Source: Haloarcula sp. CBA1127
Lineage (GTDB): Archaea > Halobacteriota > Halobacteria > Halobacteriales > Haloarculaceae
Direction: 5' to 3'
DNA length: 64,000 nt
Assembly (NCBI RefSeq): GCF_001485575.1
Contig: NZ_BCNB01000006.1
Location: forward strand, 2,604,001 to 2,668,000
Shown one piece after another: positions 10,930-23,561 of the stretch; within the stretch, counting starts at the first letter, position 1; every line of letters begins with the position of its first letter. A model generated the notes under the pieces. It was not told where the DNA came from, made no database searches, and saw only the letters and a list, made by a program, of their open reading frames with translations. The translations under genes and the position numbers were made by a program.

Positions 10930-11100
10930 CCCGGAGAACCCGGGCACGCGACATGACCGCGGTTCACACCGCATCTGGTCGTCATTCGACGACCCGCCAG
11001 ACGGTTGCACCGTCTGGGCGTTCGGTGATTACGCCGTAATCACCCGCGCTCGCGGCTGACGCCGCTTGCGCATTTGGTCGTTATTCAACGACCCGCCCGG
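10930..11100. repeat. Dense palindrome cluster framed by 28-bp direct repeats
   Basis: Two 28-bp direct repeats with three mismatches lie at 10971-10998 and 11070-11097. Between them sit three hairpins: 10997-11017 (9-bp arms, loop TGC), 11024-11044 (9-bp arms, loop GCC) and 11046-11071 (GCGGC arms with flanking GCGC). Smaller inverted repeats occur at 10930-10944 and 10959-10972. No reading frame is convincing. It could be a mobile mini-element, a structured RNA or a terminator array; nothing in the sequence decides. Confidence 0.7.
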
Positions 11101-22629: not shown

Positions 22630-22748
22630 CCGAAGCGATAACATTCCAAAATGACGAAACGATCTCGCTGGGACTCGTCCACCGGGTCGCTAGTGCCGTC
22701 CGTGACCAACATCATAATGATTCGGACATTCTCGATGGTAGTGTTTAG
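22626..22748 (+). CDS. 39-40-residue ORF whose last codons were replaced by an IS
   Basis: Starts at ATG 22626, overlapping the preceding stop. The frame enters the insertion sequence after ATTCTCGAT and stops at 22748 inside it. Removing the IS and one copy of the 8-bp duplication joins GAT 22736 to ACG GAG TAA at 23500-23508, giving a 39-residue product ending DILDTE. The insertion thus changed only the last two or three residues. Function is unknown. Confidence 0.45.
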   Translation: MTEAITFQNDETISLGLVHRVASAVRDQHHNDSDILDGSV

Positions 22749-23438
22749 TTTGGAGCATTGTGCCAGCGAGCGAAACTCTGGAGCCAATTTTCGGCTGTTT
22801 CCGGTTCGACGTGGCTGAAGCAGTTCGAAAACGAGGAAGTTCGGCGTTTCAGTTCTCGAAAAATCCGCTCGACAGCGTTCCGATTTCCGTGGCGACACAT
22901 CTGAAATCGGAGTCCAGTTCGTTGAAGTGCAGTTTGGAGGTGTTGAGCGCCATCAACAAGAAAAACGGCGGTTTCGACATCGTGCTTTTGCTGAAGTTCG
23001 CGCAGGAAAATTTCCGTGAGAGCGGTCGTAGTTGTCGTAAACAACCGGACGTGAAGCAATTCGTTCGACTGCGGATCGGCGGCGTTCACAAGAGCACAGC
23101 TCTTGTGCAGCCCATCAGAATGGCTCTGCCATTCTGAGGACGGCGTACAGCCAGAACTGCTCGTCGTTGATCCGAATCACTGTTTCGTCGAGCGCGATCT
23201 GATTCGGTGATTTCCCGGATTCAGGCTGTAAATCGGCTTTCTGCACCCAATCATGGATTGCTTTTCGACTTCGTTGGACACCCAGCGAATCGAGTAATTC
23301 GACGGTATTCGACAGCGACAGCCCCGCAACGTACGATTGAATACCCAGTGCCATCGCTGGCTCGGGTGTCCGCTCGCGCTCCACAAAATCCAAATCAATC
23401 CAGTCTCTATGACCGGTGAGGCGGGCGATTTCTGCCAT
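22745..23438 (-). pseudogene. IS6 transposase interrupted by a 56-bp hairpin insertion
   Basis: The 5' part (MAEIARLTGHRDWIDLDFVE onward) carries the first catalytic aspartate in ALDETVIRINDEQFWLYA. The 3' part continues ADPQSNELLHVRLF, then VFLVDGA (second Asp) and NAVERIFRELKRRT (Glu), the DDE triad. Between them a 61-bp gain shifts the frame and introduces a TGA. Deleting 23085-23140 plus one CGGCG copy restores WLYAADPQSN exactly. The transposase is therefore inactive unless supplied in trans. Confidence 0.9.
23085..23140. mobile_element. 56-bp double-hairpin insertion inside the transposase
   Basis: It consists of two perfect hairpins in tandem: 9-bp arms (CACAAGAGC) and 10-bp arms (TCAGAATGGC), each with a three-base loop. 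It is flanked by a direct repeat of 5 bp (CGGCG at 23080-23084 and 23141-23145). It has no coding capacity. Precise removal restores the host gene, so this is an insertion, not decay. Confidence 0.8.
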
Positions 23439-23561
23439 AGACCAGCAAGAAATTCTCCCGCCTCACCTTTCACGCTTAACTAAACACGACCTTCTCGATA
23501 CGGAGTAACTACGATGTGTCCCCTCCTTCTGTAGAGAATACCGCTCACTTCTACCGACGGT

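Follow-up and report, generated by a model that had tools for sequence, protein, structure and literature searches.

The inserted element and its host IS6 copy

The window analysed here, a 64,000-bp stretch of the Haloarcula sp. CBA1127 genome, contains an IS6-family element that is flanked by an intact 8-bp duplication (Table 1), and an intact relative matches NF033587 with an E value of 6e-54. The minus-strand transposase gene is interrupted by two perfect hairpins, both with 3-nt loops, as the original prediction had stated, and this insertion would have inactivated the transposase. Folding of the 58-mer as single-stranded DNA gave −19.1 kcal/mol compared with −7.0 ± 2.2 for its shuffled versions (z −5.6; none of 200 shuffles equalled it), and no double hairpin was found in 20 shuffles of the window sequence. 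The element, which scores 78.4 bits with our covariance model R1, is the single copy of its family in this genome.

Table 1. Coordinates of the IS6 copy and of the double-hairpin element in the window
Feature	Position	Strand	Remark or basis
Host IS6-family element, terminal inverted repeats	22737..23491	-	Aligned IS copies
IS6 target duplication, 8 bp, TTCTCGAT, copy 1	22729..22736	.	Sequence
IS6 target duplication, 8 bp, TTCTCGAT, copy 2	23492..23499	.	Sequence
Transposase, N-terminal part, stop inside the element	23115..23438	-	Open reading frame
Transposase, C-terminal part	22745..23089	-	Open reading frame
Target dinucleotide CG, directly 5′ of the element (consensus RCG)	23083..23084	+	CG before 37/38 site clusters
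Inserted double-hairpin element, TTCAC...GGACG	23085..23142	+	58 bp; empty versus filled IS6 copies
Hairpin 1: stem CACAAGAGC/GCTCTTGTG, 9 bp, loop ACA	23087..23107	+	Sequence, fold, covariation
Spacer CAGCCCA, conserved	23108..23114	+	Almost invariant in family alignment
Hairpin 2: stem TCAGAATGGC/GCCATTCTGA, 10 bp, loop TCT	23115..23137	+	Sequence, fold, covariation
Right end GGACG, constant	23138..23142	+	Identical in 18/18 aligned copies

Comparison of IS6 copies with and without the insert, proposed earlier as a check, revealed that most copies lack the segment, so it is not an in-frame part shared by all elements of this type. The empty allele in the relatives is TAC-GCNGCNGCN-GAT (9 nt; the few divergent variants are of equal length), while the filled allele comprises 67 nt, which corresponds to a net gain of 58 nt. 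The empty site reads GGCG^GCGTACAG. In the filled allele L010, GGCA/TTC..GGACG/GCG, the apparent CGGCG repeat is broken, and this allele together with the 58-nt difference defines the unit as TTC...GACG placed after RCG. The CGGCG motif does occur on both sides of the insert, at 23080–23084 and 23141–23145, but its interpretation as a 5-bp target duplication around a 56-bp unit had to be rejected: the empty and filled alleles differ by 58 bp, and direct repeats of 3–9 bp showed no excess over permutation at the 38 usable site clusters (see below). The two CGGCG copies are a coincidence, because the target GGCG/GCG meets the constant element end ..GGACG. Since target and element both end in CG, a 2-bp duplication of CG is indistinguishable from none. 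The insertion is real, and there is no duplication beyond the shared CG. Removal of 56 bp and one CGGCG gives WLYAADP, as predicted, but the usual empty form is WLYAAADP, which was read in most relatives and in 6 of the 7 IS6 copies without the insert that were inspected in this genome. WLYAADP, the 6-nt form, is atypical and was represented by L008 alone among the IS6 copies inspected in this genome.

The exact IS6 site is common to seven copies of its cluster. In the IS tree, the filled copies fall into more than one clade (five label changes, with weak support), yet the elements of near relatives carry the same loop, ACA, and the same stem tip, TGGC. The likeliest account is that a single insertion was passed on between IS copies by recombination or through a trans-mobilized IS, while the distant IS6 types L049 and L139 acquired their elements in separate insertion events.

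Layout and distribution of the family

The family members share the layout TT-hairpin-CAGCCCA-hairpin-GGACG with 3-nt loops and a length of 54–62 nt, typically about 56 nt. An alignment of 18 copies contains 27 invariant columns, and the covariation in the stems is strong compared with both shuffled and slid controls. Inversions of the loops (TTC/GAA and TCT/AGA) among the copies suggest template switching at the hairpins. Because template switching could itself keep the stems paired, the covariation is not a proof of selection for folding.

By BLAST, 24/60 relatives were found to carry the unit, and the covariance model matched 169/195 genomes of the order at E ≤ 0.001. We rely on the stricter figure, 143/195 genomes with a best match at E ≤ 1e-10, because weak matches also catch other double hairpins. 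The best match in roughly 100 genomes outside the order was 5.8e-7 (30.7 bits). A scan of 84,980 species with the exact pattern returned 73 loci, all haloarchaeal, and 36 plasmid records matched, those among the matches listed being haloarchaeal without exception, while viral contigs and phage collections gave no match. Thus, both the two-hairpin pattern and its empty sites, which the original prediction had suggested searching for in haloarchaeal genomes, were found there, and related palindromes are abundant beyond this IS type. These comparisons show that the element in the window belongs to a haloarchaeal family of 54–62-nt noncoding mobile repeats; the many related copies, the independent sites and the exact empty sites agree with the tiny, hairpin-only mobile unit originally proposed. 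The two-hairpin family was not found in any paper by a literature search, which mostly did not cover subscription papers and is no proof of novelty.

Insertion sites

The 107 distinct copies were grouped into 45 site clusters, of which 38 were usable for site statistics. Exact empty sites were recognized for the insertion in a lipoprotein-like gene of Haloarcula rara (G002; 14 homologous sites) and for that in tnpB at VLG^VDL (about 19 homologous sites), and in both cases the sequences aligned gap-free with no extra base. Joining the flanks also restored continuous frames in genes for TnpB, a P-type ATPase, a GNAT protein and a second IS6 transposase type; TnpB was assigned by Pfam match at two positions and by eye at the third (L126). 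CG directly preceded the insertion in 37/38 clusters, with a purine before the CG in 32/38. Conservation of the target is confined to the 5′ side, and the ACG right end of the element matches the RCG target; a palindromic CG target appeared as a tendency in pooled base counts, while symmetry was absent site by site. Seven of the 38 sites lay within perfect hairpins (89/4000 among RCG control positions), and an IS6, TnpB or Y1 gene was present within 700 bp in 11/45 clusters compared with 12/600 background windows from four chromosomes. At the left-end site of IS605 elements, GATACAG^CGCCGC, related double hairpins were found in both orientations and were absent from six sister copies. These data show that the elements insert precisely, without target duplication or with just the 2-bp CG, and that their sites are overrepresented close to other mobile elements and within pre-existing hairpins.

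Codons of the RuvC-I motif of tnpB were hit at VLG^VDL or GIDLG^V in different genomes (L029, L030, L039, L112, L132, L136, L141 and L154). A diverged 54-nt copy (L093) lies in frame within the P-type ATPase gene, where it would add 18 residues, which recalls the Rickettsia palindromic elements. In intergenic regions, the context cctttttcgcccacg/element/tttttg recurs (L016, L017, L028, L044–L048, L107, L129, L162 and L163), and its outer arms can pair (CCTTTTTC..GAAAAAGG). An inverted extragenic repeat, GGCCCCTTTCAGTCCCRCCC...GGGYGGGACTGAAAGGGGCC (L015, L019, L026, L033, L036, L272 and L275), also recurs in haloarchaea; a 400-kb sample contained six matches to its motif, and it directly adjoins 17 of the 107 element copies.

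Proposed mode of mobilization

We infer that the element is non-autonomous and is mobilized in trans. Subterminal hairpins, the lack of terminal inverted repeats and target duplication, and a target on the 5′ side are hallmarks of IS200/IS605-type transposition, for which PMC3119063 provides a haloarchaeal source. Because the target is conserved only 5′ of the insertion and the right end, ACG, matches it, transposition of a single strand by an HUH/Y1-like enzyme is suggested. We therefore favour, with a probability of roughly 0.5, a haloarchaeal mobile repeat that inserts precisely, is non-autonomous and is moved in trans, likeliest by HUH/Y1-like single-strand cut and paste. The transposase would recognize both folded hairpins, cleave 3′ of the CG of the target on the left and 3′ of the element's own ACG on the right, and the excised strand would be rejoined into a target strand 3′ of RCG. 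A conserved target lying wholly 5′ of the insertion is what a Y1 substrate should have, but guide bases were not found 5′ of each hairpin foot: merely TT separates the cut from hairpin 1, which leaves no room for an IS200/IS605 left guide sequence. An autonomous Y1 element with matching ends was not present among the 40 tnpA loci examined, some genomes contain 10 or more copies and no listed Y1 gene, and the genome of the window itself has none. The number of Y1 genes was also rejected as a predictor of element copy number (rho 0.24, a weak correlation). Moreover, the two orientations at the IS605 left-end site would also be expected from an ordinary double-strand cut at a palindromic CG, which argues against an HUH enzyme.

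In several genomes, R1 matched roughly 150 bp upstream of tnpA, and these matches were considered as a sign of an autonomous partner (“REPtron”). Most of them are hot-spot insertions, and the partner was rejected because the alignment showed both orientations and empty sister copies. When the left and right halves of the unit were sought as the ends of a longer transposon in eight genomes, no gene-bearing version was found; where the halves were spaced further apart than usual, a nested element of a second family (see below) lay between them.

Other routes have to be weighed against this one. A site-specific recombinase, such as an IS607-like serine enzyme, that uses CG as the crossover dinucleotide would act on a circular double-hairpin unit; recombination of its junction GGA-CG-TTC with an RCG target would leave a CG on either side. 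The CG on both flanks of nearly all copies, the almost palindromic junction GGACGTTC and one CG site at which related elements point either way are in line with this route. Nevertheless, the symmetry around CG is absent site by site and IS607-like serine enzymes require no perfect hairpins, hence we regard this route as unlikely. A classical DDE transposase acting in trans on a MITE-like unit and producing a 2-bp CG duplication could account for the short imperfect ends CGTTC/CGTCC, and the second family nested in L083–L086 has longer ends (TCGTYCGA), but the ends of the element itself are too short, the two-hairpin structure is left unexplained, and a DDE family that invariably duplicates CG is not known to us; this possibility appears distinctly improbable.

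The family could also be a core-deleted derivative of IS200/IS605 elements, in which the left and right IS605 hairpins were fused as in the 52-bp terminal-only PATEs of Haloquadratum. Its size, the two near-terminal palindromes, the lack of duplication and the haloarchaeal setting agree with this (PMC3119063), but the IS605 ends in these genomes carry other hairpins, for example CCCACGACTTTAGTCGTGGG, no longer element with both hairpins apart was found in eight genomes, and the conserved spacer between the hairpins disfavours repeated independent deletions. Such an origin is thus rather doubtful. That the sequence is an RNA element or terminator under selection, and not a mobile unit, is hardly credible: some copies do occupy the conserved intergenic context cctttttcgcccacg/.../tttttg (clusters L016, L120 and L135), but the same sequence occurs at 45 site clusters, some within coding genes, a search of Rfam with the element gave no match, and the exact empty sites inside genes disfavour this reading.

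Comparison with known palindromic repeats

The nearest described elements are the SMRs and PATEs of Haloquadratum, and we do not claim membership in either. SMR-A and SMR-B of Haloquadratum walsbyi are 80–110 bp long, with prominent inverted terminal repeats and no target duplication; SMR-A elements target IS605-type elements, and the mobilizer of SMRs was called enigmatic (PMC3119063). Like SMRs, the two-hairpin units are haloarchaeal and noncoding, lack a target duplication, have ends unrelated to known transposons, prefer IS605-type or other mobile elements and palindromes, and have no known mobilizer (PMC3119063). Unlike SMRs, judged by their descriptions and not by their sequences, they are 54–62 nt long, and instead of prominent terminal repeats have imperfect inverted ends of at most 5 bp, just CGTTC/CGTCC. 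With PATEs, including the 52-bp terminal-only forms, they share near-terminal palindromes, the lack of inverted terminal repeats and of target duplication (apart from the ambiguous 2-bp CG), a size too short to code and a similar length (PMC3119063). However, the palindromes of PATEs resemble IS605 ends (PMC3119063), whereas 40 tnpA loci carry terminal hairpins other than those described here, and the 52-bp HqIRS46 form retains one copy of a 22-bp palindrome, not two different hairpins (PMC3119063).

The REP, BIME and REPIN repeats associated with RAYTs are likewise short palindromic units, often paired and presumed to be moved by Y1 enzymes (PMC2817692, PMC3116915). The present family has no GTAG tag at the hairpin foot, and its two hairpins differ from each other and stand in a fixed head-to-tail arrangement; no RAYT gene with the repeat on its flanks was found, as the hairpins close to tnpA were inserted later and are missing from sister copies. 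CGTC-tagged REPs, with a CGTC tag, an 8–9-bp stem, a 4–5-nt loop and a CCA tail, and the Rickettsia palindromic elements are similar in the CGTC start, seen here on the minus strand, in some insertions within genes and in having no known dedicated transposase (PMC3733652). The family differs from the CGTC-tagged REPs in its 3-nt loops, tail, stem start, fixed pairing of two different hairpins and archaeal host. The resemblance to double-hairpin elements of fungal mitochondria, noted originally, holds in form: those elements and the yeast GC clusters are tiny hairpin-only insertions with two or three identical flanking bases, and their palindromic units merge and shuffle (PMC4478555). It does not extend further, since no sequence relationship was shown, the flanks are AG or ACT in yeast GC clusters (PMC4478555) and CG here, and copies were found solely in haloarchaeal genomes and plasmids, a different genetic system.

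Significance and other double-hairpin families

With sharp boundaries, known empty sites and a length of about 56 nt, these mobile DNAs form a class-wide family whose members can feasibly be synthesized whole. Given this size and the empty sites, it becomes testable how gene-less DNA without clear terminal repeats or target duplications moves, and by which enzyme. The repeated insertions in the RuvC-I motif of tnpB and in IS6 transposase genes are also relevant to the idea, put forward earlier for the Haloquadratum SMRs, that such repeats hold other mobile elements in check. More tentatively, the elements may belong to an extensive class of mobile DNA that consists of hairpins only and continues to spread, with at least three nesting, CG-targeted double-hairpin families, which preferentially break transposase and tnpB genes, parasitizing or curbing other mobile elements.

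A second family of double hairpins, GTCGTYCGA-hairpin-TGATCA-hairpin-TCGRACGAC, was seen at L083, L084, L085, L086, L074, L110 and L149. In L083–L086 it is inserted within copies of the first family, once in a hairpin loop, and a Y1 transposase gene contains the copy L074. Tandem and multi-hairpin clusters are built from a third variant, TTNACGA..-TCGCACACCAGAA..TTCTGGGGACG (L018, L021, L068, L121, L251, L254, L258, L259 and L269); several of its copies, pointing in either direction, share a single hot spot in the left end of IS605 elements with tnpA. The window itself contains another perfect double hairpin at 10997–11044, CCAGACGGT-TGC-ACCGTCTGG, gcgttc, GGTGATTAC-GCC-GTAATCACC, located downstream of a 452-aa ORF between the similar palindromes GGTCGTCATTCGACGACC and GGTCGTTATTCAACGACC; it is unrelated in sequence and is possibly another element of the same kind.
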